Positions 24,884-53,228 of a stretch of DNA of 64,000 nucleotides are shown here, in pieces. Position 1 is the first letter of the stretch, and the number at the start of each line of letters is the position of its first letter. Source of the DNA: Clostridiales bacterium (GTDB taxonomy: Bacteria; Bacillota; Desulfotomaculia; Desulfotomaculales; VENG01); NCBI GenBank assembly GCA_016278505.1, contig JADQBQ010000021.1, positions 62,001 through 126,000 on the forward strand, given 5' to 3'. The notes beneath the pieces were generated by a model. It did no database searches and was not told the origin of the DNA. It saw only the letters and a list, made by a program, of their open reading frames with translations. The position numbers and the translations under genes are program-made.

Positions 24884-24925
24884 TTGTCAACCCAAAGGAG
24901 GTGCAGGTTCCGAAAAATAAAATAG
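24884..24925 (+). CDS. Possible 13-codon leader peptide
   Basis: TTG start at 24884 with GGGGAGG 8 bases upstream, encoding a basic peptide beginning MSTQRRCRFRK and ending at TAG 24923-24925. It lies 44 bases before the binding-protein start. No proline or branched-chain codon run is present, so classical attenuation on the transported substrate is not evident. Confidence 0.3.
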   Translation: MSTQRRCRFRKIK

Positions 24926-24969
24926 TCTTAAAAATGCTTGTCTTACAAAAGAAAACGGGAGGTTACATT

Positions 24970-26142: not shown

Positions 26143-26180
26143 TATAGAATTTACAAGGTAACAAAATAATTAGTTATATC

Positions 26181-26221
26181 GGGAGTTATCCTTATGATAT
26201 TAATTTTAAAGGGTAACTCCC
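26181..26221 (+). terminator. Hairpin between livJ and livH
   Basis: 13-bp stem GGGAGTTATCCTT / AAGGGTAACTCCC (one G-T pair) with a 15-base loop, then CCCTTTCCT. Its place between binding-protein and permease genes fits partial termination or 3'-end protection that keeps the binding protein in excess. Confidence 0.65.
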
Positions 26222-26266
26222 CCTTTCCTATAATCACACACTTAGCCAAATTGGAAGGATGAGGGT

Positions 26267-27181: not shown

Positions 27182-27186
27182 CGCAA

Positions 27187-28191: not shown

Positions 28192-28217
28192 AAAACAACA
28201 CAAGGAAGAGGGTTGGT

Positions 28218-29707: not shown

Positions 29708-29743
29708 ATCAGGCTCGAATACGGCATAGATGAGGTGTATTTG

Positions 29744-30625: not shown

Positions 30626-30629
30626 CGGT

Positions 30630-32996: not shown

Positions 32997-33021
32997 ATTA
33001 AATTGCATAGCCTTACTATGA

Positions 33022-35639: not shown

Positions 35640-37337
35640 GTGCAGAAACAAAACAATCCGTCGCCCAGGAGAATTGCTTGGGTTTTCTTAATATTTTGCT
35701 TGGCTTTCACATTACTAATTGGTCATTTGTTCTGGATACAGCTTATTCAAGGAAGGGATTGGCAGCAAAAAGCATCTCAAATGCGCACGAAAAGCAAAGT
35801 TCTAACATCACGCCGCGGTCTAATAATGGACCGTAATGGAAACAAGCTGGCCACAAATATTAAGGTGAACTCTATTTATGCCGATCCTCATATGATTGAC
35901 AGTACTGAACAAGCAGTCAAAGATTTAAGCTTAATACTTGGGGTGAATAAGAAAGAGTTATATGAAAAATTAAATAAGAATACATCTTTTGTTTGGATTA
36001 AGCGCAAAGTTGACTATGAAACATCCCAAAAGATCAGAGAATTACAGATTAAAGGTCTGGGGTTTATTGAGGAAAATAAACGTCTGTACCCAGATGGGCA
36101 AACAGCCTCTCATGTGCTGGGTTTTACCGGCATGGACTACCATGGATTGCAAGGAATCGAAAAGAGTTTAGATGAGGAACTCCAGGGAGAGGCCGGTGAC
36201 ATGTTAGCCGAATACGGGGCAAAAGGGAGAAAGATACCGGGAAGTACGTCCCGGTACAAGGAACCGGTCCCGGGAAATAACATTGTACTTACTTTGGATA
36301 AGCATATACAGTACTTTGTTGAACGAGAACTAAACAGCATTGTCAAGACTTACAATCCCAAACTAGCAGTGGCACTGGTCATGGATCCTAAAACAGGCGA
36401 AATACTGGCAATGGGGAATCAACCTACATTTAATCCTAATCGATGGAATGATTCGCCGGAAGAGATTTGGGACAATAATCCTGCTATATGGTACAACTAT
36501 GAACCTGGCTCCATTTTTAAAATCATTACGGCCGCCGCAGCGTTAGAAGAAGGATCGGCTAACTTAGAAAGCAAATTTTTTGATCCTGGTTATGTAGACG
36601 TGGATGGTCAAAAAATTAAATCCTGGAAACAAGGAGGACACGGCAGTCAAACCTTCCTAGAAATAATGCTTAACTCATGCAATCCAGGGTTTGTGAAAGT
36701 TGGTTTAACTCTTGGTAGAGAACGCTTTTATAAGTATATTGAAGGTTTTGGTTTTGGAAATGTTACTGGGGTTAAGTTGCCGGGGGAGGCTGGCGGAATA
36801 TTGATTCCTGAAAGTCAGGCCACCGACTTAAATATCGCTACCCAGGCTATAGGCCAATCCATAGCTGTAACTCCACTTCAGCTCATTAAAGCGGTTTCAG
36901 CAGTGGCAAATGGTGGAAAGCTCATGAAACCTCAGCTGGTTAAAAAGATTGTTACTTCGAGTGGGGAAATAATTCACGAATATCAACCAAAGGTAGAACG
37001 CCAGGTGATATCAGCCAAAACGTCTCAGGAAATGAGAAGTATTTTGGAAAAAGTTGTGACTGACGGAACAGGGAAGCAAGCTTATTTGGATGGGTACAGG
37101 GTAGCCGGGAAAACTGGAACAGCCGAAGTAGCGGGGGACAATGGCTATGTAAATGGGCAATACATATCTTCATTTGTAGGCTTTGCACCGGCCAATAACC
37201 CCCGCGTTACCATTCTTATCATGATAGCGGAACCTAAAGGTGATACATACCACGGCGGTCTGATTGCAGCCCCCTCCTTTAAAGCCATAGCTAGTGATAC
37301 TTTAAGATACTTAAAGATACATAGAAATTATAATTGA
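35640..37337 (+). CDS. Penicillin-binding protein (FtsI/SpoVD-type transpeptidase)
   Basis: 565-residue class B penicillin-binding protein that cross-links peptidoglycan outside the membrane. One N-terminal membrane helix (about 12-35), a dimerisation domain (60-210), then the transpeptidase. The catalytic motifs are SIFK (Ser291-Lys294), SCN (346-348) and KTG (491-493). No C-terminal PASTA domain, so it is closer to FtsI than to full SpoVD. Starts at GTG 35640 with GAGGG about 12 bases upstream. It is not in the usual mraZ-mraW-fts cluster but beside a broken ftsE and a copper module, suggesting an extra, acquired or specialised copy. Confidence 0.9.
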   Translation: MQKQNNPSPRRIAWVFLIFCLAFTLLIGHLFWIQLIQGRDWQQKASQMRTKSKVLTSRRGLIMDRNGNKLATNIKVNSIYADPHMIDSTEQAVKDLSLILGVNKKELYEKLNKNTSFVWIKRKVDYETSQKIRELQIKGLGFIEENKRLYPDGQTASHVLGFTGMDYHGLQGIEKSLDEELQGEAGDMLAEYGAKGRKIPGSTSRYKEPVPGNNIVLTLDKHIQYFVERELNSIVKTYNPKLAVALVMDPKTGEILAMGNQPTFNPNRWNDSPEEIWDNNPAIWYNYEPGSIFKIITAAAALEEGSANLESKFFDPGYVDVDGQKIKSWKQGGHGSQTFLEIMLNSCNPGFVKVGLTLGRERFYKYIEGFGFGNVTGVKLPGEAGGILIPESQATDLNIATQAIGQSIAVTPLQLIKAVSAVANGGKLMKPQLVKKIVTSSGEIIHEYQPKVERQVISAKTSQEMRSILEKVVTDGTGKQAYLDGYRVAGKTGTAEVAGDNGYVNGQYISSFVGFAPANNPRVTILIMIAEPKGDTYHGGLIAAPSFKAIASDTLRYLKIHRNYN

Positions 37338-37498
37338 TTGTTTTCAATATGTTAAATATTTGTAATGATTCTGTTTTTATAATGTAACTTTAGTTCTATA
37401 TAATCGGCCTAGAGAGTCAATAATAACTGAGGAAAAGGAGGAGTGAGTACTAAAGTCATATTTAATTTTTATCTATCATAATCCAAGGAGGTATGAAC

Positions 37499-37927
37499 AT
37501 GAAGGGTAAAGTATGGGTATTACTTTTGGGAGTGTCGCTTGTTGCAGCACTCATTGCACCAACCGCTTTTGCATCTTGGCAAAGTGCACAATTGGGTACA
37601 CCTGATTATCAGGACATGATGAATAATAACAACCAGGACATAATGGTTAGACACGTAGATGTTGAAACAAATGATACTGCAGAAGAAACTAACCAACAAT
37701 CTGACCCCGTAGATGGGGCTAAAAATAATTATTCTCCCCCACAAACACCGACAAATGATCAATTCACCCAAAATCAAGCACAAGCTTGGCAAGATCATTA
37801 TTCATACATGAATAACATGATGGGCGGGATGATGGGTGGCTACGGATCTGGTAACGGCAGTTACGGAATGATGGGCGGCTATGGATCTGGCAACGGCGGC
37901 TACGGAATGAATGGATCATCATATTAA
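37499..37927 (+). CDS. Exported Met/Gly/Asn-rich protein, 142 aa
   Basis: Signal peptide at the N terminus (MKGKVWVLLLGVSLVAALIAP, cleavage probably after AFA). The mature part is polar and Asn/Gln-rich, with the tail YMNNMMGGMMGGYGSGNG followed by a second MMGGYGSG repeat. Two ATGs compete; the second (37499) is 7 bases from AAGGAGG and is chosen. No known family recognised. Methionine clusters of this kind bind Cu(I) in several unrelated proteins. The genes that follow are csoR and copA, and a second Met-rich exported protein lies after copA, so a role in copper handling outside the cell is plausible but inferred. Confidence 0.75.
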   Translation: MKGKVWVLLLGVSLVAALIAPTAFASWQSAQLGTPDYQDMMNNNNQDIMVRHVDVETNDTAEETNQQSDPVDGAKNNYSPPQTPTNDQFTQNQAQAWQDHYSYMNNMMGGMMGGYGSGNGSYGMMGGYGSGNGGYGMNGSSY

Positions 37928-37981
37928 AAGAATAAAACAGGATATATAGACTTCACAAGCAGCGTAAACCGGTCAACTCCT

Positions 37982-38012
37982 AAATAAGATCCCGTTTAAC
38001 GGGATCTTATTT
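37982..38012 (+). terminator. Terminator after the Met-rich protein gene
   Basis: 13-bp perfect stem AAATAAGATCCCG / CGGGATCTTATTT with a 5-base loop, followed by TATATC. It separates this gene from the csoR-copA operon. Confidence 0.85.
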
Positions 38013-38183
38013 TATATCATAAAACTATAATGTAACACTTACAACTTAATGGATATGCATTGAACATTTCTTTACGAAAAACCTGTTATTTTTAAATCAT
38101 AACAGCGTTATCAACCTTCTACATATTTTACCTTAAAGTGTAAATAGCTCACGACAAATACTGATATTTTTTTCTTTAAGGTG

Positions 38184-38210
38184 TTGACAATTAAACAGCG
38201 ATAATATAAA
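38184..38210 (+). promoter_or_regulatory. Candidate sigma-A promoter of csoR-copA
   Basis: -35 TTGACA (38184-38189) and -10 TATAAA (38205-38210) with a short 15-base spacer. Short or off-length spacing is common in metal-regulated promoters. The CsoR-type palindrome begins 17 bases downstream. Confidence 0.5.
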
Positions 38211-38226
38211 GTTACTTAATAATACT

Positions 38227-38244
38227 ATACCCCCTGTAGGGTAT
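38227..38244. promoter_or_regulatory. CsoR-type operator
   Basis: ATACCCCCTGTAGGGTAT, inverted repeat ATACCC / GGGTAT with a 6-base centre. It matches the G/C-tract palindromes bound by CsoR repressors, directly ahead of the csoR start. Expected to be bound without copper and released when Cu(I) loads CsoR. Confidence 0.8.
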
Positions 38245-38267
38245 GCAAAGTTAAAGGCGGTTATCTG

Positions 38268-38531
38268 ATGCAAGGGAACAAAAAAGAGCTTATGGACAGG
38301 CTTAAGAGAGTAGAGGGGCAAATTCGAGGCATTCAAAAAATGATAGAGGAAGACCGTTATTGTATTGATGTTTTATACCAGGTCAGTGCCAGCCGTGCAG
38401 CCTTGAAAAAGTTAGGGATGCAAATGGTGAGAAATCATACCCGGGCATGTGTTGCCAATGCAATCAGACAGGAACACGGCGATGAAGCAATTGACGAATT
38501 AATGCAGTTTTTGGACAAGTTTGTAGACTGA
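38268..38531 (+). CDS. csoR: Copper-sensing transcriptional repressor CsoR
   Basis: 87-residue all-helical DUF156 repressor. The Cu(I) ligand set Cys-His-Cys is present at C32 (RYCIDVL), H57 and C61 (NHTRAC), which separates CsoR from nickel-sensing RcnR and formaldehyde-sensing FrmR. The N terminus LMDRLKRVEGQIRGIQKMIEE is the family signature. It represses the operon it leads, with copA starting 21 bases after its stop. ATG 38268 has a weak ribosome site (AAAGGCGG about 10 bases before). Confidence 0.93.
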   Translation: MQGNKKELMDRLKRVEGQIRGIQKMIEEDRYCIDVLYQVSASRAALKKLGMQMVRNHTRACVANAIRQEHGDEAIDELMQFLDKFVD

Positions 38532-38552
38532 CATTCAAAGGGAGTTGGTAGA

Positions 38553-40973
38553 ATGGCAACGGAAGGTACGTTAAAAAAAGCTGAGTTTAAAGTAACCGGT
38601 ATGAGCTGTGCTGCCTGCGCAGCCCGGATAGAGAAAAACTTAGCCGGGGAGAAGGGCGTGCATGACGCCACGGTTAACTTTGCCACCAGTAAGGCTACCG
38701 TAAATTATGACTCTGGCCAAGTTGAGCCTGAATACCTTTCAGAAGTTATTAAACAGGTGGGTTTCGGAGTGGTAACGGAAAATGTAGAACTGCGTATTAC
38801 CGGGATGACTTGTGCAGCGTGCTCTGCAAGGGTGGAGAAAAAGTTGAATTCCCTCCCCGGAGTGCAGGCTAGTGTCAACATAGCCACGGAAAAGGCAGTG
38901 GCGGACTATAACCCGGGCCTTACCGATCTGGGGGAAATAAAAAAGGCCATAGTTGGCATCGGCTACGGGGCGGAAGTAGCTGACACCGGGGGCGCGGATG
39001 CTGAAAAAGAAGCACGGGAAAAGGAAATCCGCCGTTTCAAAAACCTGTTCGTATTCTCAGCGGTACTTTCCTTACCGCTGTTGGCATATATGTTTGGCAT
39101 GCTGTTCAAACTTAACTTGCCGGATATTGTTTATAATCATTACTTCCAGTTAATCCTTGCTACCCCTATCCAATTTATTGCGGGATGGCACTTTTACCGG
39201 GACGCTTACCTGGTCTTAAAAAATAAGGGAGCGAATATGTCTGTGCTGGTGGTCCTCGGTACCACCGCGGCCTACCTATATAGTGTAGTGGTGACCTTTT
39301 GGGGTGCATCTATCGGCGCAGACGAAGTATACTTTGAAACCAGTGCCCTGATCATTACACTTATATTACTGGGTCGCTTACTGGAAGCAGTGGCCAAGGG
39401 GAAAACTTCCGAGGCCATTAAAAAATTAATGGGCCTGCAGGCCAAAACAGCCCGCGTAATCAGGGACGGGCAGGAAATGGAAATCCCGGTTGAACAGGTA
39501 ATGGTAGATGATATTATTGCTGTACGGCCCGGAGAAAAACTTCCCGTGGACGGTGAAATAGTCGAAGGTTATTCCAGTGTTGATGAGTCCATGCTTACCG
39601 GTGAAAGCCTGCCGGTGGATAAAAATGTGGGAGACACCGTGATCGGTGCCACTATCAATAAACTGGGAACCTTTAAGTTTAAAGCCACCAAAGTAGGCAA
39701 GGATACAGCTCTGGCGCAAATTGTACGTATAGTGGAGGACGCACAAGGTTCCAAGGCCCCTATTCAGCGCATGGCGGATATTATTTCCGGTTATTTTGTC
39801 CCGGTGGTAGTTGGCATTTCACTGATTACCTTCGCCTTATGGTATTTCTTCGGCGACCCCGGCAACTTTACATGGGCCCTCATCAATTTCACCGCAGTAT
39901 TGGTAATCGCCTGCCCGTGCGCCCTGGGCTTAGCCACACCCACATCAATTATGGTGGGAACAGGACGGGGAGCAGAAAACGGCATTTTGATCAAGGGTGG
40001 TGAATTCCTGGAGCGGGCGCAGAAGATCAATGCCCTGGTATTGGACAAGACGGGTACCATCACCCGGGGTGCGCCGGCTCTGACCGATTTGCTCGTATTG
40101 GATTCAGTAGCAGGAAGCGAGAAAGAATTGCTGGCCCTAGCAGGCGGAGCAGAAAAGGGCTCGGAACACCCTCTGGCCCAGGCCATAGTGCAAAAGGCTG
40201 AAGAAGAAGGCCTGGAATTACCGGTGCCACATCAATTCGAAGCTATTCCAGGACATGGTGTGCTGGCCCAAATGAAAGACCACAAATTATTGCTGGGTAC
40301 TCGCAAGTTAATGAGTGAAAATGATGTGGAATGGGAGAGCCATGAGAAAAAGATTGAAAAACTGGAACGTGAAGGAAAGACCGTAATGATCATGGCGGCA
40401 GCCGGAAAGGCTGTGGCCTTGCTAGGAGTTGCCGATACAATTAAGGATAACTCAACAGAAGCTATACATGCCCTTAAAGAAATGGGTATAGAGGTTTGGA
40501 TGATTACTGGTGATAACAAGCGTACCGCAGATGCCATTGCCGTCCAGGTGGGCATTGAGAATGTACTTGCCGAAGTACTGCCCGAAGATAAAGCCAGAGA
40601 AGTACAAAAGTTACAGGAGAGCGGCAAGGTGACCGGCATGGTGGGGGACGGCATCAACGATGCCCCGGCCCTGGCTACTGCTGAGGTGGGATTTGCAGTG
40701 GGTACCGGAACTGATGTGGCCATGGAAGCTGCAGATATTACTTTGATGAGCGGGGACCTGAGAGGAGTCGTTAACAGCATCAGGTTAAGTCGGGCCACCA
40801 TGCGTAACATCAAACAAAACCTGTTTTGGGCCCTTATTTACAATACAGTGGGCGTACCGGTAGCTGCCTTAGGCTTTTTAAATCCGGTCCTTGCCGGTGC
40901 TGCCATGGCGTTCAGTTCCGTTTCCGTGGTAACCAATGCATTACGTTTAAAGAGAGTTAAACTGAAAAGCTAG
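38553..40973 (+). CDS. copA: Copper-exporting P1B-type ATPase CopA
   Basis: 806-residue Cu(I) efflux ATPase. Two N-terminal heavy-metal-associated domains with CxxC at C19/C22 (GMSCAAC) and C87/C90 (GMTCAAC). Eight predicted membrane helices, the ion-path motif CPC (454-456), phosphorylation motif DKTGT (498-502), actuator TGES, nucleotide-binding HP in SEHPLAQA and hinge [12 protein letters not shown]. The layout is typical of Gram-positive CopA. It lies behind csoR in one operon. AGGGAG precedes the ATG. There is no separate CopZ chaperone gene. Confidence 0.96.
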
Positions 40974-41004
40974 TAGATATAAATAAGCTAAGGAGGTGAT
41001 AATT

Positions 41005-41079
41005 ATGATGAGGAAGCGTTTTATGCTTCGCCGCGTGGCAAACTGCGACGGTGGACACCGAATAAAGTCCCGGGCATGA
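41005..41079 (+). CDS. Possible 24-residue basic peptide after copA
   Basis: ATG 41005 behind a near-perfect ribosome site (AAGGAGGTGAT, spacing 6). The frame encodes MMRKRFMLRRVANCDGGHRI and four more residues, ending TGA 41077-41079. Strongly basic, with one Cys and one His. It falls between copA and the operon terminator. The strong initiation signal is the main support; the peptide matches nothing I know. It could be a small protein or a translation-dependent regulator. Confidence 0.5.
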   Translation: MMRKRFMLRRVANCDGGHRIKSRA

Positions 41080-41105
41080 CACAAAACTGCCTATAATATA
41101 CACTG

Positions 41106-41139
41106 AAGGGCCGTGTGGATATTAATCTGCACGGCCCTT
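41106..41139 (+). terminator. Terminator of the csoR-copA operon
   Basis: AAGGGCCGTG / CACGGCCCTT, 10-bp stem with a 14-base loop, then TATTTAAA. Confidence 0.8.
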
Positions 41140-41180
41140 TATTTAAACACTTGATAACCCATACATAGAATTCAATGTAT

Positions 41181-41271
41181 AATCTTTATATTTTTGTTAT
41201 GAATACGAGATCGTTTTGTAAATTGGAGGTTTTAAAATAATAATTGACGCTTGGATTATTTTTCCTTGGGG
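41181..41271 (+). repeat. Intergenic repeat, copy B
   Basis: Second copy of the element at 35471-35561. Shared blocks are GTTTTGTAA-TTGGAGG, TTAAAATAAT and GGATTATTTTTCCT. The hairpin arms have diverged in this copy, and the 4-codon ATG has become ATA, so it does not encode a conserved peptide. It ends about 80 bases before the second Met-rich gene, the same distance as copy A to its gene. Confidence 0.7.
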
Positions 41272-41353
41272 GGAGGGATAGCTCTGGAATAACTTTATCA
41301 TATTAACCCAAGCATGGTTTGACATTCATTATAATTAAACGGGGGTGTAAGTT

Positions 41354-41890
41354 GTGGGTAAGAATAAAACATTCGTGCTGCTTTTTGCATTTGTCCTTCT
41401 ATTTTCTTTAGTAGGTATAGCAAATGCTGCTGAAATTGACACGGACCAAATGAAAATGAACAATTCCGCCGCAGTTTCAGAAACTAATGATGAACAAGCA
41501 GGGATGATGGACGATAGGGACGGAAATAGCACAGTAGACGGCAATGGCAATATGATGAACAGTGAGAATGAAATTGATACAACTGACGAAGAAAACAGTG
41601 ATATGATAGGCAATGAAGATACCACAGTGGACATGAAAAATGACAACATGATGGACAGCGGAAAAGACGATATGATGAACAACGAAGATACGAACGATTC
41701 AATTGACGGAAACAACAGAGATGATGAGAATGACAGGGTGGACAGGGAAGAAAATAATGATCAAATTAGAGACTTCCCCGGATATAGAATGGTCCCTTAT
41801 AACGCCAACAACTCATATTTCAACTGTTCTTGGAATAACCGCCCCCAAAGATATAACGGTATGATGGGAATGATGGGTGGTTACAGATAG
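41354..41890 (+). CDS. Exported Met/Asp/Asn-rich protein, 178 aa
   Basis: Begins at GTG 41354 with GGGGGTG about 8 bases upstream. The signal peptide is about 1-25 (FVLLFAFVLLFSLVGIANA, cleavage after NAA). The mature protein is extremely acidic and low-complexity, built of repeated blocks such as DGNGNMMNSENE, NDNMMDSGKDDMMNNED and DRVDREENNDQ. It ends in RYNGMMGMMGGYR, sharing the MMGG-Y tail with the protein at 37499. Paired methionines recur throughout. No known family. Likely a secreted or wall-associated metal-binding protein given the copper operon next door; the acidic blocks could equally bind calcium. Confidence 0.75.
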   Translation: MGKNKTFVLLFAFVLLFSLVGIANAAEIDTDQMKMNNSAAVSETNDEQAGMMDDRDGNSTVDGNGNMMNSENEIDTTDEENSDMIGNEDTTVDMKNDNMMDSGKDDMMNNEDTNDSIDGNNRDDENDRVDREENNDQIRDFPGYRMVPYNANNSYFNCSWNNRPQRYNGMMGMMGGYR

Positions 41891-41917
41891 GCTTTGGCTG
41901 ATACTCATTAAACAAGC

Positions 41918-41951
41918 AAAAAGGCCGGAAATACCAATACCCGGCCTTTTT
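41918..41951. terminator. Bidirectional terminator
   Basis: AAAAAGGCCGG / CCGGCCTTTTT, 11-bp stem with A-run on one side and T-run on the other, between two convergent genes. Confidence 0.85.
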
Positions 41952-41956
41952 TAATT

Positions 41957-43606
41957 TTAAATAAGCATTGGCACTACTACAAACAGTAGCGCTGCCGCCG
42001 CTCCGGCAGTCAAATTATACGGTGTCATAGCACGAACATAACTCATGTGTTCCGCCTCGGCTACACCTGACGACATGGCAGTCATGCCTGACAGGGGAGA
42101 AGTTACATCTCCAAAAGTTCCACCCGAAAACACAGCTGCCGCGGCGAGAGGAATAGAAGCACCCGAAGCGGCGGCCAGGGGAATGGCAAGAGGCATCATA
42201 AGGGCCCAAGATCCCCAGGAAGAACCGATAAAGTACGTCACCGCTGCCGTGATTACAAATGCTGCCGCCGGTACCCAAACAGCGGGAAGGGTGGCCCCCA
42301 GAGTGGTTTCAATTAACTTTGGCAGACCCAGATCGCGTGAAACCGTTGCAATTGGCCAGGCCACCACAAGAATTACAATGGTGACCATTAATTTATTACC
42401 ACCCTTTATAAACCCGTTAGTGAGGTCTTTAAGTGATAACCGCTGCAGGAGATATAACAGAGCCGTTATCACCGTAGTCAAAAAGAGTGCTTGAAACATA
42501 GCACGCGATGCGTTGGCCTGAGAGAATATTTCCAAAAGGGTGTCTCCCTTGGCACGGCCGTCCAGCCAGACCATAAGGAAACTCAAGGGAATTAGGATTC
42601 CAATAGGTATTAGCAAATTCAAAGCCCGTGGAGGCAACTTACTTTTTATTTCCATGTCATGATCATGCTCCATGTTCACAGGGGCATTTGGTCCTTCTCC
42701 GTTGCTCTTTTTCATCTCGTTTTCATTGTGCTTCGAAGATGTCACATTAATATCTTTTCCAGCTGCCGTACCCATTTGATCCCGAGCTGTATCCAACCTT
42801 CGTGCTTCACCGGGTGTCAGATCTTCAGCCGCCTCGTGACCGAATGCAGGAACACCTCTAACACCGCGCACATTGTTTTTAATACCTTTCGGCGCCGGTT
42901 TATGCCTTTCTCCGTCTTCCAGAGCTGCTTTCTTGTCGGCTTCGGCCATCTCCCGGAATTGCCACGGGCTAAAAATTGACAAAAGAGCTGTCAAAATAGC
43001 GGTGAAGCTGAAAAAGTTAAAGGGTATAGTTTGCAAAAAAATGATGAAAGGTGAACCCGCAACCCCTGCAGATCTTAACCCCACAGCCAACACTCCCAGC
43101 ATATAACCCACATACGTAGTAGCAATGGGAATAAGACTGATCAATGGACTGGCAGTGTTATTCAGAGTAAAGGCAAGTCGCTCCGGAGAAACCTTAAACT
43201 CTTTAGCCAGGGGTTTAGTAACAGCCCCGGCTGCCACCACCCGAAAGCCGCAGTCTATAAAGGTTATAGGCGCCAGAGCCGCGACTGAGAGAAGTGCCCC
43301 ACGAGCGCTCTGAACTACACGCTCCATAAGATGCGTAAAGCCGCTTACTCCGCCCGCCAGTTGGATCATGGTTACCAGACCGCTAAACACGTAAAGGAAA
43401 AGCAGTACATCCAGGTTTCCCGTATCGGATAACATAGCCAATATATAGGAAATGGTCCCGGAAAGAGACGAAAGAAACCCCGGAGATTTTATAAATGCTC
43501 CCAACCAAAGGCCCGCCAGCAGCGAGGGAATTACCTGCCTGGTTATCATCGCCAAAAGGATGGCGAAAACGGAAGGTAAGATAGAGACCCAAAGCCCTAA
43601 TTCCAT
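41957..43606 (-). CDS. NhaC-type Na+/H+ antiporter family protein
   Basis: 549-residue polytopic membrane protein of the NhaC superfamily (Na+/H+ or organic-ion antiport). About 11-12 hydrophobic segments. Conserved text: TFIDCGFRVVAAGAVTKPLA, LNNTASPLISLIPIATTYVGY, SSWGSWALMMPLAIPLA, FSGGTFGDVTSPLSGMT. An unusual hydrophilic, charged insertion of about 110 residues (216-328) splits the two halves and contains a His/Asp-rich NMEHDHDMEI. ATG 43606 with GAGG 8 bases upstream. Transported ion not determined; amino acid antiporters also belong here. Confidence 0.85.
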   Translation of the reverse strand: MELGLWVSILPSVFAILLAMITRQVIPSLLAGLWLGAFIKSPGFLSSLSGTISYILAMLSDTGNLDVLLFLYVFSGLVTMIQLAGGVSGFTHLMERVVQSARGALLSVAALAPITFIDCGFRVVAAGAVTKPLAKEFKVSPERLAFTLNNTASPLISLIPIATTYVGYMLGVLAVGLRSAGVAGSPFIIFLQTIPFNFFSFTAILTALLSIFSPWQFREMAEADKKAALEDGERHKPAPKGIKNNVRGVRGVPAFGHEAAEDLTPGEARRLDTARDQMGTAAGKDINVTSSKHNENEMKKSNGEGPNAPVNMEHDHDMEIKSKLPPRALNLLIPIGILIPLSFLMVWLDGRAKGDTLLEIFSQANASRAMFQALFLTTVITALLYLLQRLSLKDLTNGFIKGGNKLMVTIVILVVAWPIATVSRDLGLPKLIETTLGATLPAVWVPAAAFVITAAVTYFIGSSWGSWALMMPLAIPLAAASGASIPLAAAAVFSGGTFGDVTSPLSGMTAMSSGVAEAEHMSYVRAMTPYNLTAGAAAALLFVVVPMLI

Positions 43607-43887
43607 AGTAGAACCTCATTTCTCGGATGCTTTATCGACTTTAATTAATCCTTTCTTAATTTCTCCTCTTCACAAGGTGAAAACTTTTGCTTCTGCTGCA
43701 ATGTCAATCAACTTATCAGCCCCAGCAAATTCCACTCCGTATTGCTCCTTTATCATCATTATTTCAGGCTGATTTTTTATTTTCCCGTAAAAAGTGATAT
43801 AATATACTGATTTGGGAAAAGGGGCTAGAAACCTTGTAATACAAGGCTTTTTGCCCTTCTCATTTTTTGATGGCCTGATTTATTAGC
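43607..43887. other. Region upstream of the antiporter
   Basis: About 280 bases. On the minus strand a 29-codon frame (43670-43759, ending KLIDIAAEAKVFTL) reads like the end of an enzyme but has no ribosome site. It may be a remnant of a lost gene or chance. The plus strand contains the structured element listed separately at 43798-43868. Confidence 0.35.
43798..43868 (+). ncRNA. Possible short structured transcript
   Basis: A perfect TATAAT (43798-43803; no good -35) is followed within 15 bases by nested complementary segments. The outer pair is AAGGGGC with GCCCTT and the inner hairpin CCTTG-TAATA-CAAGG, then CATTTTTTG. The arrangement resembles a small terminator-ended RNA. No known RNA family recognised. 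Confidence 0.3.
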
Positions 43888-44012
43888 AATATTTGCTGAA
43901 TCCGACCTGCCGTCCGGAGTGGTAAATTACCTGCAAACTTTATAGTATCCCGTGATGTTGTGCAAAACACCCTGCACCGCGGGTTTGCCCCGGGGAAGAA
44001 GGCGACGAATAA
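43888..44012 (+). pseudogene. putA: Decayed putA (P5C dehydrogenase) fragment
   Basis: Two separated stretches of the intact putA at 21468-24464 are fused here. 43888-43934 matches 23534-23580 (encoding IFAESDLPSGVVNYL against IFAESGLPTGVLNYL). 43935-44012 matches 24385-24463, the very end of the gene including GGCGACGAATAA. The junction is the 9-mer ATTACCTGC, which occurs at both deletion ends in the intact gene (23572-23580 and 24376-24384, 804 bases apart, in frame). After the junction there is a one-base loss and a TAG, so it cannot be translated through. The non-coding sequence after the stop is also conserved. Confidence 0.85.
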
Positions 44013-44018
44013 TGTATA

Positions 44019-44057
44019 AATTTGATTGTATTTTACCAAAAACTACTATAAAATAAG
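44019..44057 (+). repeat. Duplicate of the post-putA sequence
   Basis: 39 bases matching 24483-24521 with one mismatch, directly after the putA remnant. The better preservation of this non-coding part than of the coding part is notable. Confidence 0.85.
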
Positions 44058-44166
44058 TAACTACAGGATAAACATGCTTCCGTGCTTTGCCGGATGAAAG
44101 AAAGGCCGGTGTAGACCCTTTCTGATGGTATTTTACCGGTCCGGGGTGCAGATAGTTAACTTGAAA

Positions 44167-44202
44167 TAAACAGCGAGAAGGGCCTACCCTTCTCGCTGTT
44201 TA
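44167..44202 (+). terminator. 16-bp perfect hairpin upstream of the second regulator
   Basis: TAAACAGCGAGAAGGG / CCCTTCTCGCTGTTTA with loop CCTA. No long T-run follows, so it could be a terminator of upstream transcription or a regulatory hairpin; the regulator starts 47 bases later. Confidence 0.6.
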
Positions 44203-44249
44203 CATAATACATATAGCCCTGGAAATATAAAGATTAAGGTGGAGTTGTA

Positions 44250-46292
44250 ATGAAAGTCTATCAATTTATGACCCCAATGCCAGTAACCTTAAAAGAAACT
44301 TACAGCATCAAACAGGCCGCTAAGCTATTTCAAAAGCACTCTATAGACGGGGCACCTGTTTTGGGGGAAAGTGGCAAAATTACAGGCATCTTTACAAAAA
44401 CCCACCTGTATAAAGCAATTGTAAATGAATACGATTACGACACTCCCGTCAATGTCTTAATGAAAAGCAATATTAAAACAATTAACGCTAACCGGCCTGC
44501 CAGCGAAGCATGGCAGACCGCACAGAATCATCATATCGGAAGACTGCCTGTAGTTGATGACAACGACAACCTTTTGGGAATGATGACCCGTACAAACCTT
44601 GTACGGGCATTTGAGAAAGGTATGCTGGAAAATATAAACCAGCTTAATGCTATTTTGGATTCAGCCCACAACGGGATTTATGCCATTAATAAGGACAAAA
44701 TTATAATTACCTTTAATAAAGCAGCTGAACACCTTACAGGTCTCAAACCATCTGAAGTTTTGGGTAGGAAACTAAGCGAGTTTACTTTTGACCTGGAGAT
44801 TCCAGGTATTTTAGAAGGTGGTCAACCGCAGTACGGAAAAAAAGTAGCTCTTAACGGAAACCTGGTTATAGTAAACCGCACCCCTATTATATCCGGTAAT
44901 TTTGTTATTGGCGCAGTGGCAATTATGCAAGACATATCAGAATTAGAATCCATCTCGAAGGAACTTAGTGAAACTACCGAGCTTTATGAGGAACTTAACG
45001 CGGTTTTGAATTCATCTTATGACGGTATGCTTGTGGTTGATAAAAGAGGGCAAGTTATTCAGCATAATAGTGCGTACGAAAAAATGGGATTACGGATAGA
45101 TAAAACCATTAGCGACATTAGCCTGGAGGCAACAAAAAAAAGTGAACCGGTAACTCTGGTGCATAGCTTAGAGGATGACAGACAATTTCTGCTTACTGCT
45201 AATCCTGTTCATAAGAGAGACCGCGGTAAGATAAGCAGGGTAGTTGTTAATTGCAGGGATATAAGCGAATTGAATAATTTACGTCGCCAACTGGAGACCA
45301 ACAAAGAATTATCCCAAATTTATCACTTGGAATTAGAATCATTGCGCACCAAGTATTTGGGTCACACCATGGTATGCAACAGCCAGGCCATGCGAAATAT
45401 TTTGGATTTGGCAGTTAGGGTGGCCAGAGTGGACACTTCCATTCTCATTCTGGGGGAATCCGGTGTCGGTAAAGATGTAGTCACTTCTATAATTCACAAG
45501 GCCAGTAAGCGATCACAGGGTCCCTTTATAAGGATAAACTGCGGAGCCATACCGGAAAACTTACTGGAATCGGAATTGTTTGGCTATGAACCCGGGGCCT
45601 TCACCGGGGCCAGTAAGGAGGGAAAACCAGGGCTGTTAGAATTAGCTCATGGCGGCACTCTTTTCTTTGATGAAGTGGCAGAGTTAACTTTGCCTTTACA
45701 AGTGAAACTACTTACAGTGCTTCAAGAGCGTGAGGTCACACGTTTGGGCAGCACAAAACCAACCAGCGTAGACATTAGGGTGATCGCTGCTACCAATAAG
45801 AATTTAGAAACTCTCGTCAGAAAAGGGCAATTTAGACCCGATCTTTACTACCGGTTGAATGTTGTTCCAATAACCATACCGCCGCTACGCAAACGGCAAA
45901 ATGACATTCCTTTTTTAATTATTCATTTCTTGAGAAAGTTTAACGAAAGATATAATTTAAATAAGAGCATATCAGCAGATGCAATGGATTACCTGATTAG
46001 CTATGATTGGCCGGGCAATGTGCGGGAGTTGGAAAACCTCATAGAAAGGTTAGCAGTAATAACTGCGTACGATACTATTAATAGCAAAGATTTGCCCACA
46101 GTATTCCTACAACAGAACCGCAAACTAAAGCCCCAAAATTACCACGGAGAATTGGGAAATGAAAAGGAACTCATTGAGGAATTGTACCAAAGGTTGAAAA
46201 GCACCAGGAAAGTAGCAGAAGCTCTAGGCATCCACCAATCCACCGTGGTACGCAAAATGAAAAAATATAAGATAAAAACGTCAGCACATTAA
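44250..46292 (+). CDS. Sigma-54-dependent activator (CBS-PAS-PAS-AAA-HTH)
   Basis: 680-residue enhancer-binding protein, probable activator of the beta-oxidation operon that follows. A CBS pair lies at about 1-125 (VYQFMTPMPVTL, VNVLMKSNIKTI). Two PAS domains follow (about 128-235 and 245-345, e.g. ILDSAHNGIYAINKDKI). The AAA+ domain has Walker A GESGVGKD (402-409), GAFTGA (449-454), Walker B LFFDEVAEL and WPGNVRELEN. The helix-turn-helix at about 651-672 (STRKVAEALGIHQSTVVRKM) is of the TyrR/HTH-8 kind. ATG 44250 after AAGGTGGAG. A terminator separates it from the operon. CBS domains suggest sensing of adenine nucleotides or acyl-CoA; unproven. Confidence 0.92.
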   Translation: MKVYQFMTPMPVTLKETYSIKQAAKLFQKHSIDGAPVLGESGKITGIFTKTHLYKAIVNEYDYDTPVNVLMKSNIKTINANRPASEAWQTAQNHHIGRLPVVDDNDNLLGMMTRTNLVRAFEKGMLENINQLNAILDSAHNGIYAINKDKIIITFNKAAEHLTGLKPSEVLGRKLSEFTFDLEIPGILEGGQPQYGKKVALNGNLVIVNRTPIISGNFVIGAVAIMQDISELESISKELSETTELYEELNAVLNSSYDGMLVVDKRGQVIQHNSAYEKMGLRIDKTISDISLEATKKSEPVTLVHSLEDDRQFLLTANPVHKRDRGKISRVVVNCRDISELNNLRRQLETNKELSQIYHLELESLRTKYLGHTMVCNSQAMRNILDLAVRVARVDTSILILGESGVGKDVVTSIIHKASKRSQGPFIRINCGAIPENLLESELFGYEPGAFTGASKEGKPGLLELAHGGTLFFDEVAELTLPLQVKLLTVLQEREVTRLGSTKPTSVDIRVIAATNKNLETLVRKGQFRPDLYYRLNVVPITIPPLRKRQNDIPFLIIHFLRKFNERYNLNKSISADAMDYLISYDWPGNVRELENLIERLAVITAYDTINSKDLPTVFLQQNRKLKPQNYHGELGNEKELIEELYQRLKSTRKVAEALGIHQSTVVRKMKKYKIKTSAH

Positions 46293-46337
46293 AGAACCCG
46301 ATTCATCTAGCATAGCGCGCGAGATGGATTTAACCCA

Positions 46338-46364
46338 AACCCGCCCCAATTGGCGGGTTTTTTA
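46338..46364 (+). terminator. Terminator of the second sigma-54 regulator gene
   Basis: AACCCGCC / GGCGGGTT 8-bp stem with a 6-base loop and a TTTTTTA tail, 46 bases after the stop codon. Confidence 0.9.
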
Positions 46365-46463
46365 TTGATGCGATGCAGATGATGCGTGATCGATGCATTT
46401 CTACTAAATTGCTAGTGCCAGCAAAACAAAAGCTTAATTTTTCTCGCCTGTAGTCACGCATCA
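46365..46463. promoter_or_regulatory. Clustered activator sites upstream of the beta-oxidation operon
   Basis: TGATGCGTGA (46380-46389) and its exact inverted copy TCACGCATCA (46454-46463) flank the region. More GATGC/GCATC half-sites occur at 46366-46377 and 46389-46398. The right-hand copy sits 5 bases before the -24 element. Likely enhancer sites for the regulator encoded just upstream. Confidence 0.65.
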
Positions 46464-46467
46464 GAAC

Positions 46468-46483
46468 TGGCACCTCTTTTGCA
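46468..46483 (+). promoter_or_regulatory. Sigma-54 (-24/-12) promoter of the beta-oxidation operon
   Basis: TGGCACCTCTTTTGCA: exact -24 box TGGCAC, 5-base spacer, exact -12 TTGCA, GG-to-GC spacing of 10. It lies about 140-170 bases before the candidate thiolase starts and directly after a sigma-54 activator gene. Confidence 0.92.
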
Positions 46484-46619
46484 TCATAATACTTTAAACA
46501 TTTTTAATATTGACTCTAGTGGCAATTGCAAAAGCTTTCATTCCCCTACTACACTCATCACGCGGCGGTTACTTAGTAACTCACTTACCCAATTCGAACA
46601 ACTTGCATGATGCACATTG

Positions 46620-47831
46620 ATGCATCTTATAAAACTCAAAGGAGTGATACTTATCAAAGAGGTTGTTATTGTAGCAGGAGCCAGAACAGCTATAGGTGAT
46701 TTTGGTGGTGCCTTCAGAAACTTAATTTCCTACCAACTGGCGGTACCGGTTATAAGGGAGGTCATTAAAAGGGCGGGTATCGACGGAGAAACCATTGACG
46801 ACGTCATCTTAGGTAACTGCATCCAAAGGTCTGATGAACCCAACGTAGGCCGGACTGCAGCCCTGATGGCGGGACTACCGGATACCGTTACCGGTATGAC
46901 TATTCAACGCCAGTGTTCATCCGGCATGCAGGCCATAGTATGTGGGTACCAGCAGATAATCACCGGCGATTCAGACATTGTGCTGGCGGGGGGTACCGAA
47001 TGTATGAGTTCTGTGCCGTACGCCTTAAAAGGTGCCCGTTGGGGACAGAGACTGCAAAACGGCGAGATGACGGACATGCTGTGGGAAACCTTAACAGATC
47101 CTATACACAAGATTCTGATGGGAGAAACTGCAGAAAGACTGGCGGACAAATACGGCATCACTAGAGAAGAACAGGATGAAGTTGCTTTGCGCAGTCACAA
47201 AAATGCTGCCAGAGCATCTGAAGACGGAACATTTGCAGAAGAAATTGTTCCGGTAAAAGTGCCACAGCGCAAGGGCCAGGTGACAGCTATCGATAAAGAT
47301 GAGCATCCCCGGGCTGACATTACAATGGAGAAGTTGGCCACATTAAGGCCCGGTTTCCGCCCCAACGGTACAGTGACTGCGGGCAATTCTTCCGGTCTCA
47401 ACGATGCTGCAGCAGCGGTAATTCTCATGTCTGCAGAAAAGGCCAGGGAATTAGATATAACACCCTTAGCGCGCATTGTTAGTTTTGCTCGAGCCGGGGT
47501 AGAGCCCGACTTAATGGGATATGGTCCTGTCCCTGCCATCCGCAAAGTATTGGAAAGGGCCAACATGGCGCTGGCTGACATGGAATTAATTGAACTAAAT
47601 GAGGCCTTCGCAGCGCAATACTTGGCCTGTGAGAAACTGCTGGAATTAAACAGGGAAATCACTAATGTCAACGGTAGCGGCGTTGGTATGGGGCACCCAG
47701 TAGGGTGTACAGGAACTAGAATTGTAGTAAGTTTGCTGCATGAAATGAGGCGCCGAAATTTAGCCAAAGGATTGGCCTCTCTTTGTGTTGGCGGCGGCAT
47801 GGGAATGGCCATGATCATTGAAGCAATATGA
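46620..47831 (+). CDS. Acetyl-CoA acetyltransferase (thiolase)
   Basis: About 400-residue thiolase that cleaves 3-ketoacyl-CoA with CoA (last beta-oxidation step) or condenses acetyl-CoA. Nucleophile Cys in QRQCSSGMQA, then NEAFAAQYLA, the His of GMGHPVGCTGTR and the second catalytic Cys of SLCVGGGMGMAM. The start is unclear. Family N termini begin right before KEVVIVAGARTA; the ribosome-like AAAGGAG (46638-46644) spaces to an ATC at 46653, while ATG 46620 and GTG 46644 are in frame without good sites. I report the ATG form. First gene of the operon; the next gene overlaps its stop region. Confidence 0.92.
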   Translation: MHLIKLKGVILIKEVVIVAGARTAIGDFGGAFRNLISYQLAVPVIREVIKRAGIDGETIDDVILGNCIQRSDEPNVGRTAALMAGLPDTVTGMTIQRQCSSGMQAIVCGYQQIITGDSDIVLAGGTECMSSVPYALKGARWGQRLQNGEMTDMLWETLTDPIHKILMGETAERLADKYGITREEQDEVALRSHKNAARASEDGTFAEEIVPVKVPQRKGQVTAIDKDEHPRADITMEKLATLRPGFRPNGTVTAGNSSGLNDAAAAVILMSAEKARELDITPLARIVSFARAGVEPDLMGYGPVPAIRKVLERANMALADMELIELNEAFAAQYLACEKLLELNREITNVNGSGVGMGHPVGCTGTRIVVSLLHEMRRRNLAKGLASLCVGGGMGMAMIIEAI

Positions 47832-47848
47832 GAGCTGGAGGTGATGAG

Positions 47849-48700
47849 ATGAATATCCGTAAAATTGGTGTAATTGGTGCCGGAATCATGGGTTCAGGTA
47901 TTGCACAGGTGGCAGCGCAGGCTGGGTTCAAGGTCATCCTCCGGGATATCAATCAAGATTTGGTCGATCACGGCTTAGCCAAGATAAGGAATAACCTTGA
48001 GAAAGATAAAAGCAAAGGAAAACGCACAGAAGAAGGAATAAAGAGCATTTTAAACAACCTGGAAGGCACAGTAAATATTTCTGATTTAACTTCATGCCAT
48101 TATGCCATCGAGGCTGCAGTTGAGAAAATAAGCATCAAGAAGGAAATCTTCCGCGAACTGGACAAGGCATGTGGACCAGAAACATTCTTTGCCACAAATA
48201 CATCAGGACTCAGTGTTACCGAAATAGCTGGCGTGACTGGTCGTCCCCATAAATTTATAGGTATGCATTTTTTCAACCCTGTCCCGGTAATGAAGCTGGT
48301 AGAACTGGTTAAAGGTGCCAAAACCGATGCCAATACGGTGAAGACTACTACTACACTGATAAAGGACTTTGGGAAGGAGGCTATTTTTGTAGAAGAGGCA
48401 CCGCTGTTTGCTGTCAATAGAATTCTGGTCCCAATGTTAAATGAAGCCATGTTTGTTCTGATGGAAGGTATTGCTTCTGCGGAAGATATAGATAAGGGGA
48501 TGCACCTGGGTGCCAATCATCCCATTGGTCCACTGGCACTGTCAGACATGGTGGGTTTAGATACTCTCCTTTTTGTTATGGACACTTTATACGAAGAAAC
48601 CCGGGACTCAAAATATCGTCCCTGCCCACTTTTGCGCAAGATGGTTCGGGCCGGAAACCTGGGCAAAAAAACCGGACAGGGCTTTTACAACTATAGCTGA
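47849..48700 (+). CDS. hbd: 3-hydroxybutyryl-CoA dehydrogenase
   Basis: 283-residue NAD-dependent 3-hydroxyacyl-CoA dehydrogenase. The dinucleotide fold starts IGVIGAGIMGSGIAQVAAQAG. FFATNTSGLSVTEIA and GMHFFNPVPVMKLVELV (catalytic His) follow, with the C-terminal helical domain NHPIGPLALSDMVGLDTLL. The frame opens at 47828 overlapping the thiolase stop, but ATG 47849 follows GGAGGTGATGAG and gives the conserved N terminus. Converts 3-hydroxyacyl-CoA to 3-ketoacyl-CoA for the thiolase upstream. Confidence 0.94.
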   Translation: MNIRKIGVIGAGIMGSGIAQVAAQAGFKVILRDINQDLVDHGLAKIRNNLEKDKSKGKRTEEGIKSILNNLEGTVNISDLTSCHYAIEAAVEKISIKKEIFRELDKACGPETFFATNTSGLSVTEIAGVTGRPHKFIGMHFFNPVPVMKLVELVKGAKTDANTVKTTTTLIKDFGKEAIFVEEAPLFAVNRILVPMLNEAMFVLMEGIASAEDIDKGMHLGANHPIGPLALSDMVGLDTLLFVMDTLYEETRDSKYRPCPLLRKMVRAGNLGKKTGQGFYNYS

Positions 48701-48702
48701 CG

Positions 48703-50259
48703 ATGTATAACCTAGGCAATATACTGAAAATGACGTCTGAAAAGCACCCTCACCGACCAGCGTTGATTGTACCGGGTAATAAGTTAGATTGGACTTTCTT
48801 GGAATGGAATAACCAGGTAAACAGGCTGGCAAACAAACTTCTTAAATTAGGCATAACAAAAGGGGACCGGGTATCCACCTTTTTACCTAATTCGGCTGAG
48901 TTAGTGACTGTGCTATTTGCCGTGGCAAAAATAGGAGCGGTGTTTAACCCCGTCAACTGTAATTTAAGCGGTGGGGAGCTGGCCTTTATCTTGAACGATA
49001 TCGAATCAAGAGTTTTAGTATACGGTGAGCCTGAGAAAAAACGGGTGGAGAGAGCCTATGCCAAAATAAGAAATGTTGAATACTACCTTTATGTCGGTGA
49101 AAATTCACCTGAATATGCTTATTTATACTCATCTTTGCTGGAGAACTCCTTGGGTAAGGAGCCCTCTATCTCGGTATCCGAAAACGATTGGTACGCAATC
49201 ATGCATACCAGCGGTACAACCGGCAAACCCAAAGGAGTTATTCACCGGCACCGGGATATTATGGATCACAGCATGTGCATGATTAATTCACAAAATCTTA
49301 CGCTCAAGGATAAGGGACTCTCGGTAGCTCCTCTTTACCACAGTGCTGAACTGCATTGCTTTTTTATCCCCAGGGTTCATGTAGGGGCAGCAAATGTAAT
49401 TTTAGACAATCAAGATTCTTCTAATATAATACAAACCTTAAGCAACAAAAAAATTACTGTTTTTTTTGCCGACCCTCCGAAACTAAAGACTGTTTTACAA
49501 GATGTTCCAGGCCCTTTTCAATTGCCCAGTTTGCGCCTTCTAGCTCACGGCGGTGCTCCAATGGAACATGCATTTGCCTTAAATTGCCGAAAGTACTTTA
49601 GCGTGGATATCATTCACTATTACGGCATGACTGAGATGGGACCAGCAATATCAGCTTTATGCCCGGAGGACCAACAGCAAAAGCCCGGTTCTGCTGGTAA
49701 GGCCATTTTAAACCATGATATTAGGGTAGTTGAACTAAACGGTGACCTACCGTCGGAACCGGATAATACGGTCAAGCCCGGTTTTAAAGGAGAAATCATT
49801 GTTCGCGGCACCAGCATGATGCAGGGTTACTATAATCGTCCTGAAAGTACCGCACAGGCCCTTTATGGCGGGTGGTATCACACAGGAGATATCGGCCGTT
49901 TTGATCAGGAGGGGCATTTATGGATTTTTGACCGAGTGGACGACGCCATAATCATAGGAGTTGAAAATGTATATCCACGAGAAATCGAAGAGGTTTTACT
50001 TGAATGCCCGGGTGTGCAGGAAGTTGCTGTGGTTGGAATAGAAACCAATACCGGTGCAAAAGAAATCACCGCATTCATCGTCCGTGAAGATAAAAATCTT
50101 ACACCCACAGAAATTAATGATTACTTGCAACAAGCTGACAAGCTAGCGAGCTTCAAAATACCTACACAGTATAAGTTTATTGACCTGTTACCTAAACTGA
50201 CGACAGGCAAGATATCGAGGCACCATCTGGTTAAACAGTGTCGGTTACAATTTAATTAA
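48703..50259 (+). CDS. AMP-forming acyl-CoA ligase 1
   Basis: 518-residue adenylate-forming enzyme that activates a carboxylic acid to its CoA ester. ATP motif MHTSGTTGKPKGV, YYGMTEMGP, the GWYHTGDIGRFD region and the C-terminal LTTGKISR lysine motif. It starts 2 bases after the hbd stop without its own ribosome site, so translation is probably coupled. Substrate chain length is not readable. A DRVDDAIIIGVENVYPREIEE motif replaces the more usual DRKKDMI. Confidence 0.88.
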   Translation: MYNLGNILKMTSEKHPHRPALIVPGNKLDWTFLEWNNQVNRLANKLLKLGITKGDRVSTFLPNSAELVTVLFAVAKIGAVFNPVNCNLSGGELAFILNDIESRVLVYGEPEKKRVERAYAKIRNVEYYLYVGENSPEYAYLYSSLLENSLGKEPSISVSENDWYAIMHTSGTTGKPKGVIHRHRDIMDHSMCMINSQNLTLKDKGLSVAPLYHSAELHCFFIPRVHVGAANVILDNQDSSNIIQTLSNKKITVFFADPPKLKTVLQDVPGPFQLPSLRLLAHGGAPMEHAFALNCRKYFSVDIIHYYGMTEMGPAISALCPEDQQQKPGSAGKAILNHDIRVVELNGDLPSEPDNTVKPGFKGEIIVRGTSMMQGYYNRPESTAQALYGGWYHTGDIGRFDQEGHLWIFDRVDDAIIIGVENVYPREIEEVLLECPGVQEVAVVGIETNTGAKEITAFIVREDKNLTPTEINDYLQQADKLASFKIPTQYKFIDLLPKLTTGKISRHHLVKQCRLQFN

Positions 50260-50302
50260 AACGATTTTCAGCCTATTAAAAATTTTATAAGGAGGTCTCT
50301 CC

Positions 50303-51952
50303 ATGTCCTTTTTACTTCCTTTAAATGAAAAGGAAAAGGAAAATTTTAATGCACTTAATAAGGAAAACCTTGATTTTATTCGTCGCCGCTATAATAAGGT
50401 AAACCGGTGGGTAATTGCTGACATGGTTCGCCGTAGTGCTTACAGGTACCCCAACAAACCGGCCTTAATCTTTAATGATGAAACTTTAACCTTCTCTCAA
50501 TTGGAAGCGGAAGCTAATCGCTTTTCCAACTCCCTTTTGGCTGCAGGAATTAAAAAATATGACCGAGTAGCAATATTGGCTCACAATACCATTCACCATG
50601 TAATTACCTGGTTGGGCACCGCGAAAGCGGGCGGAGTCTATTTGGCGGTAAACTACCTGTTAAGGGGAAAAGATATTAGTTTCTGCATCAACCATTCGGA
50701 AAGTAAGGTTTTCATTGTAGAAGATACCCTATATGACTTAGTTAAGGACGTTTTAGATGATATGCCTACAGTAAAGACCCTCGTTTGGTCCAATCCGGGT
50801 AATGGAATACAGGCTCAGGATGGATTTTATGACTTTGATACCTGGTATAAGGAGCATCCGGCAACTGAACCTGATGTAGAGTTAAACATTGAAGATCCTG
50901 TTCAAATGACTTACACAAGTGGTACCGAGACACTACCCAAGGGGGTTATACTTAATAACCAATCGTTGATTTCAGAATATACGGGCTGCATAATCGACGG
51001 AGAATATTCCCCTGATGACATTTGCTTAAATGCTCTGCCTATATTTCACTGCGCTCAGAGAGATTGTTTTCTCAACCCCTGTCTGATGCTTGGCGCTACC
51101 AATATATTGCTGGAGGCAAATCCAAAGCAAATAATGCAATACATTGAAAAATACAAGGCAACTATGTTTTTTGCTCCGCCTACTGTGTGGATAGGTTTGT
51201 TAAGACACCCGGACTTCGATAAATATGACCTTAGTTCTGTGACCAAAGGCTACTACGGAGCATCAATAATGCCTGTAGAAGTATTGAAGGAATTACAAAA
51301 AAGATTCCCTAATTGTCAGCGATTTTATAATTATTACGGCCAGACAGAGCTCAGTCCTTACCATACCATTCTCAAGCCTGAGTTTCAGATATCAAAGGCA
51401 GGGTCGGCAGGTATGGGCGGGCTTAACATGGAATCACGCATAGAAAATATTGAGCACGAGCCTATTAGCGTAGCAGGAGAGCCCGGTGAAATATGCGGTC
51501 GCGGACCACATAGTCTGATGCTTTACTTCAAGGAAGCTGATAAGACTGAGCAAACTCTTGCCCACGGCTGGTTCCATAGTGGTGACATTGGAGTTTTGGA
51601 CGAAGATAACTATATCACGGTTGTTGACCGCAAGAAAGATATGGTTAAGACGGGCGGCGAAAATGTTCCCAGCCGTGAGGTGGAAGAAGTAATCTACCAA
51701 GATTCCCGTGTTTCCGAAGTAGCTGTAATTGGTTTGCCACACGAGACGTGGGTGGAGGGAGTTACAGCGGCTATAGTACCCAAGGCCGGACAAATAATCA
51801 AGGAAGAAGAAATCATAAATCTTTGCCAAGAAAACCTGGCCAGATTTAAGGTTCCCAAGGGAATTGTATTTATAGACGAGCTGCCCAAAACCCCCAGCGG
51901 GAAAATTCTAAAACGTGATTTACGCCAAAAATATTCTGATTTTTATAAATAG
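50303..51952 (+). CDS. AMP-forming acyl-CoA ligase 2
   Basis: 549-residue second acyl-CoA ligase, clearly different from its neighbour. ATP motif MTYTSGTETLPKGV, in which E replaces the usual TG of the loop, YYGQTELSP, HGWFHSGDIGVLDED, DRKKDMVKTGGENV and the C-terminal TPSGKILKRDL with the catalytic lysine. ATG 50303 has AGGAGG 9 bases upstream. Two ligases in one operon imply two acid substrates or a medium- and long-chain split. Confidence 0.88.
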   Translation: MSFLLPLNEKEKENFNALNKENLDFIRRRYNKVNRWVIADMVRRSAYRYPNKPALIFNDETLTFSQLEAEANRFSNSLLAAGIKKYDRVAILAHNTIHHVITWLGTAKAGGVYLAVNYLLRGKDISFCINHSESKVFIVEDTLYDLVKDVLDDMPTVKTLVWSNPGNGIQAQDGFYDFDTWYKEHPATEPDVELNIEDPVQMTYTSGTETLPKGVILNNQSLISEYTGCIIDGEYSPDDICLNALPIFHCAQRDCFLNPCLMLGATNILLEANPKQIMQYIEKYKATMFFAPPTVWIGLLRHPDFDKYDLSSVTKGYYGASIMPVEVLKELQKRFPNCQRFYNYYGQTELSPYHTILKPEFQISKAGSAGMGGLNMESRIENIEHEPISVAGEPGEICGRGPHSLMLYFKEADKTEQTLAHGWFHSGDIGVLDEDNYITVVDRKKDMVKTGGENVPSREVEEVIYQDSRVSEVAVIGLPHETWVEGVTAAIVPKAGQIIKEEEIINLCQENLARFKVPKGIVFIDELPKTPSGKILKRDLRQKYSDFYK

Positions 51953-52010
51953 TCTAACATTTACTTTTGTTATATTAACTGCTTACTAATAAAGGGAGGA
52001 ATCTAGACAT

Positions 52011-53147: not shown

Positions 53148-53228
53148 ACAAAAAAACGAAAAGGTTAAGATTCTCCTGCTAGGATATTATTGCAAAAATG
53201 CTTGCCATTATACAAAGGAGGTGCTGGA

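Follow-up and report, generated by a model that had tools for sequence, protein, structure and literature searches.

The intact putA-hypD cluster

The window analysed here, i.e. the whole stretch of 64,000 nucleotides of DNA from a Clostridiales bacterium, carries on its forward strand a cluster of genes that begins with putA and ends with hypD:

21465-24464, + strand: intact putA (999 aa) with PutA_N, proline dehydrogenase and P5C dehydrogenase domains (Pfam PF18083, PF01619 and PF00171)
24901-26142, + strand: substrate-binding protein of the branched-chain amino-acid transporter type (Pfam PF13458 on 24901-26139)
part of 24901-29707, + strand: four open reading frames termed livHMGF, between putA and the hypD activase gene
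29735-30625, + strand: glycyl-radical activase of the HypD type (best NCBIfam match NF043069 with 401.8 bits, just below the cut-off of 425)
30630-32996, + strand: intact hypD, encoding trans-4-hydroxy-L-proline dehydratase (NF043068 with 1373.6 bits; cut-off 1100)

The names livHMGF were assigned from position and from tblastn matches to like-ordered genes in relatives, and not from a family search. Protein searches of the organism's own genome, for which the relic described below is too short, returned one match each for putA and hypD; the putA gene at 21465-24464 is the sole full copy in this genome, and hypD is single-copy. A second gene for a sigma-54 activator (19435-21189, - strand) lies divergently beside the intact putA, and similar activator genes adjoin putA in genomes G045, G036, G030 and G061.

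A remnant of two genes in one intergenic region

About 20 kb from the intact putA, between the gene of a Na+/H+ antiporter (41957-43606) and that of a CBS-PAS sigma-54 activator (from 44250), lies a scrap of 267 bases (43889-44155) whose parts match the cluster:

43889-43934, + strand: putA piece 1 (codons about 691-706), 41/46 identical to 23535-23580, ungapped, ending with ATTACCTGC
43926-43934, + strand: joint of an 804-bp deletion, a 9-bp direct repeat (ATTACCTGC) found at 23572 and 24376 in the intact putA
43935-44014, + strand: putA piece 2 (3' end of the gene up to the stop), aligned with 24385-24465, with two frameshifting gaps
44020-44057, + strand: putA 3' flank block, 37/38 identical to 24484-24521
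44057-44081, + strand: hypD piece 1 (around NYRINLLP), 23/25 identical to 32530-32554
44084-44155, + strand: hypD piece 2 (around ALPDGRKAGETLSEGISPVQGAD), 82% identical over 72 positions to 32592-32662

Comparison of 43700-44260 with the window by blastn yields four pieces, namely 43926-44057 against 24376-24521 (114 bits), 44084-44155 against 32592-32662 (68.9 bits), 43889-43934 against 23535-23580 (61.7 bits) and 44057-44081 against 32530-32554 (37.4 bits), all of them collinear, in one orientation and in the order of the intact cluster. This similarity exceeds chance: when 79 segments of the window (650 bp each) were compared with 21465-32996, matches above 31.9 bits came solely from the segment that begins at 43500, which recovered all four pieces, one of them trimmed by the segment edge to 58.1 bits; likewise, none of 1000 mononucleotide shuffles of 43600-44250 reached 37.4 bits, the best scoring 33.7.

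The preliminary description of this DNA had recognized a decayed second putA at 43888-44057, and the alignments agree with that (41/46 positions for piece 1; 65 identities, 13 mismatches and 5 gap positions for piece 2 against 24385-24465; a tblastn match, IFAESDLPSGVVNYL, at 80% for piece 1). It had, however, taken the remnant to be putA only and to end at 44057, which does not hold: the adjoining 98 bases (44057-44155) correspond to two hypD pieces, both of them within the gene at 30630-32996, 9 kb further along the cluster. Both ends of the putA-transporter-activase-hypD cluster are thus represented in the relic, where 267 bp take the place of 9.1 kb, and the presence of two hypD pieces suggests that a longer putA-liv-act-hypD stretch, or putA and hypD at the minimum, once existed at this place. 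Among the translated matches listed for 43600-44260, none above noise was to liv or activase genes, so that in the copy putA and hypD may have been less far apart.

An alternative is that putA and hypD each contributed short segments, copied to this spot separately by templated insertion or as repair filler, and that a full copy never existed here. The pieces are indeed very short, the missing transporter and activase traces would fit, and homology at the joint between flank and hypD amounts to at most about 1 bp; yet four pieces inserted independently would fall into one order and one orientation with a chance of 1 in 192 (4! x 2^3), and the joint within putA is shaped like a direct-repeat deletion. 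We consider such a patchwork origin very unlikely, and erosion of a former gene copy is the reading pursued here.

Extending the blastn comparison to 36000-54000 against 17000-34000 added only weak opposite-strand matches in the interval that separates the two sigma-54 regulator genes (45522-45610 and 45840-45865), along with a single match of 15 bases. Neither Rfam, for which 43500-44400 gave no match above the gathering score and two sub-threshold hits that both lie outside the relic, nor a search of 43600-44260 in distant mode against 72,556 plasmid records, which gave no match, provided a further assignment. A perfect inverted repeat of 16 bp with a 4-base loop (44167-44202; -27.4 kcal/mol, z -9.9), devoid of a long T tract, directly follows the relic and lies just upstream of the CBS-PAS gene.

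The deletion joint within putA

The sequence ATTACCTGC starts at 23572, 24376 and 43926, and the two positions in the intact gene are spaced by exactly 804 bases, i.e. 268 codons. One repeat is thus kept at the joint, while the intact gene has two, one at either side of the DNA that is missing here, as is expected of a deletion between short direct repeats, and the proposal of an 804-bp loss between 9-bp repeats stands; we infer from the repeat that slipped-strand mispairing or a similar short-repeat process made the gap. The further proposal that one-base losses and a TAG followed is likewise in accord with the alignment, since the frame of the first piece runs into TAG at the fourth codon past the CTG of the joint, and since tblastn places the protein matches of the two putA pieces in different frames. 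To call the deletion 'in-frame', as had been done, is correct insofar as 804 is a multiple of 3; the frame is lost, however, immediately past the joint, and that of the deletion is therefore uninformative with respect to function.

Taken as a whole, the remnant is devoid of an open frame, owing to stops and frame changes between the pieces. Its breaks comprise (i) the 804-bp deletion, (ii) a junction with about 8 kb left out, (iii) a deletion of roughly 35 bp in hypD, and (iv) frameshifts. Frame disruption, internal deletions and the absence of most of putA and hypD are all marks of a pseudogene.

The putA 3' flank block

It had been noted that 39 non-coding bases after the stop are kept with one mismatch, better than the coding part. 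The single mismatch is correct, but the block is one of 38 bases (44020-44057, 37/38). It differs from the intact locus at 1 of 38 positions, compared with 18 of 124 for the coding pieces (two-sided Fisher P 0.047), where the block was chosen post hoc for its similarity and leaves out the neighbouring 13 gap positions of the alignment. This slightly better conservation speaks against plain decay.

Two explanations had been offered, and neither fared well. The first, function of the 3' segment, would imply that the relic was co-opted, with the flank acting as a putative regulator binding site or RNA element for the CBS-PAS sigma-54 gene. Apart from the identity of 37/38 versus 106/124 in the coding pieces, one may adduce in its favor that the intact block contains the inverted repeat TTTTAC-N11-GTAAAA and that the gene downstream encodes a sigma-54 activator. 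However, (i) P is just 0.047 after the block had been chosen, (ii) allowing up to 3 mismatches, the block occurs at two places in the genome, namely here and at the intact locus, (iii) the remnant has a break in one arm of the inverted repeat and no longer forms the RNA hairpin (-6.3 kcal/mol with z -1.2 for the weakly folding intact block; -1.1 for the remnant block), (iv) reading upstream of the orthologues of the CBS-PAS gene in genomes G036 and G017 did not reveal the block, which was also not seen by eye in 260 bases after putA in each of seven relatives, and (v) the sole perfect -24/-12 site in the window (see below) is downstream of the regulator gene. Hence, we regard co-option as highly improbable, and likewise its specific form in which the flank was kept as a putative binding site through which the gene of the CBS-PAS sigma-54 regulator is tied to the cluster for proline and hydroxyproline; if that were true, a dead gene would have supplied a regulatory element to the regulator gene.

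The second explanation, namely that the decaying copy recently underwent gene conversion at its flank, with the intact locus as donor, would likewise account for an identity of 37/38. The 38-base tract is short, though, with diverged and gapped sequence immediately alongside, and the excess of identity is weakly significant, so that conversion, too, appears highly unlikely.

As regards other candidates, a conserved regulatory motif was rejected on account of the broken inverted repeat, the two genomic occurrences, the reading in G036 and G017 and the folding, and a conserved UTR hairpin on account of the folding. Flank-like matches in G103 and G104 (28 bases, 89%) proved on reading to be AT-rich and to occupy the interval of two divergent genes rather than a place behind putA.

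The CBS-PAS sigma-54 regulator gene

The closest orthologues of the CBS-PAS gene, in G036 and G017, are distant (66-70% identical) and keep genes of acyl-CoA ligases downstream. Since relatives with an intact putA upstream of such orthologues might have revealed the former copy, their surroundings were read, and no putA was found within the 20 kb read. The window contains only one mismatch-free match (46468-46483) to TGGCAC-N5-TTGCA, the sigma-54 -24/-12 consensus. This predicted site lies in the stretch from the CBS-PAS activator gene to the thiolase/acyl-CoA ligase genes, and its position suggests that the activator may drive the latter genes through it.

Relatives and the direction of changes

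A search of 40 genomes found none of the same genus, and the one genome of the same family (G001) is devoid of both putA and hypD, so that no intermediate was seen and an ancestral second copy is not demonstrated. Among 113 genomes of the order, six encode a putA near full length on one contig (G000, G045, G036, G061, G030 and G011, the organism's own among them), and in G048 the gene is split over two contigs. DNA matches of any kind were found in 11 of the 113 genomes, none of them closer than the own genome; a DNA search at class level covered the same number of genomes, 113.

The differences between the two putA copies were polarized by comparison with five relatives (G045, G036, G030, G011 and G048). 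Four changes seen only in the remnant (at 23551, 24399, 24414 and 24427) fall on first or second codon positions, with all five relatives agreeing with the intact gene. Although the sample is small, the remnant has apparently changed without regard to the protein, as is expected without constraint, and this pattern corresponds to the loss of purifying selection that marks a pseudogene. Close to the stop, at 24447, 24449 and 24451, it is the remnant that has the majority base of the relatives (4/4, 3/4 and 4/4) and the intact gene that changed, which indicates that the copies parted before those changes; remnant and intact copy were thus both altered after parting. For hypD, a single relative (G050) agrees at the 12 differing sites with the intact gene in 5 cases, with the remnant in 2 and with neither in 5.

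Decay of the same pathway in other genomes of the order

Broken putA or activase-hypD genes in other genomes of the order indicate that decay of this pathway recurs, where all cases come from assemblies of many contigs and may involve misassembly. In G047, putA matches only codons 107-610 and 870-999: the locus L086 (contig C42, about 9044-10916) is devoid of the first ~320 bases and of ~800 internal bases, and at the internal joint about 800 bases are skipped relative to G045 of the same genus, with a shift in frame. This gap is nearly as long as the 804-bp deletion described here, but is located at another place. In G010 (L090, contig C1, about 8351-8913, - strand), activase codons 27-50 are joined in frame to hypD from codon 625, followed by a frameshift, and the fusion keeps the C-terminal part of hypD, the site of the glycyl-radical domain.

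Genome G068 has no full putA but contains two fragments from the 3' end of the gene, each about 150 codons long (L085, 3530-3979; L089, 3992-4441). The fragments are 88% alike over 463 bases, and 39 of 51 coding differences are at third positions, implying divergence mostly under constraint, so that they may perhaps have diverged as intact genes. A small extra piece of putA lies 2 kb from the L089 fragment, and about 1.6 kb upstream of the L085 fragment there is an open reading frame that is presumably tyrosine-recombinase-like, as judged by eye from its HDLRHT motif.

Proposed history

Based on its sequence, the remnant is very probably a non-functional relic of a second putA...hypD copy worn down by deletions. 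Such a copy would have been a duplicate of the cluster or have been acquired from a close relative with the same 3' flank, and would have been located upstream of the present CBS-PAS sigma-54 regulator gene before losing selection. Thereafter, 804 bp would have been lost within putA between the 9-bp repeats; the DNA immediately behind putA would have become fused to hypD at about codon 634, a jump of 8,008 bases provided that the genes of the copy were ordered as they are in the cluster today; and a net loss of about 35 bp in hypD, along with single-base losses and missense changes, would have completed the decay. The repeat, the sizes and the collinearity are read directly from the sequence, whereas the pathway of deletion, the order in which these events are given and the original extent of the copy are our reconstruction.

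As it stands, the remnant is of little importance in itself. It may serve as a clear worked example of the erosion of a catabolic cluster copy, of which an intergenic scrap is left that still shows a legible deletion joint and the remains of two genes joined together. It also adds to the signs of repeated decay of putA and hypD in this order, and cautions that more than one gene may be present in a scrap of intergenic DNA that bears the name of one.

Comparison with known systems

The intact genes matched by the relic belong with the HypD/PutA genes of hydroxyproline and proline catabolism, as defined by NF043068 and the PutA set of Pfam domains; the relic, unlike such genes, encodes nothing. 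What it appears to represent is ordinary pseudogene erosion by a standard deletion mechanism, the latter judged from the repeat. An account of Rickettsia (PMC2374718) describes gene remnants and independent small deletions, and the relic resembles those pseudogene remnants in being a short non-coding scrap that matches an intact gene, with indels and stops; it differs from them in belonging to a genome of 3.9 Mb, in deriving from a second copy of a catabolic cluster, and in having the intact copy 20 kb away. Similarly, a study of perfect deletions between direct repeats in mycobacteria (PMC3519483) provides a parallel to the joint within putA, as one repeat and the intervening DNA are lost and one repeat is left, where that work used designed repeats in mycobacteria and E. 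coli, whereas the deletion proposed here would have occurred at a natural repeat of 9 bp.
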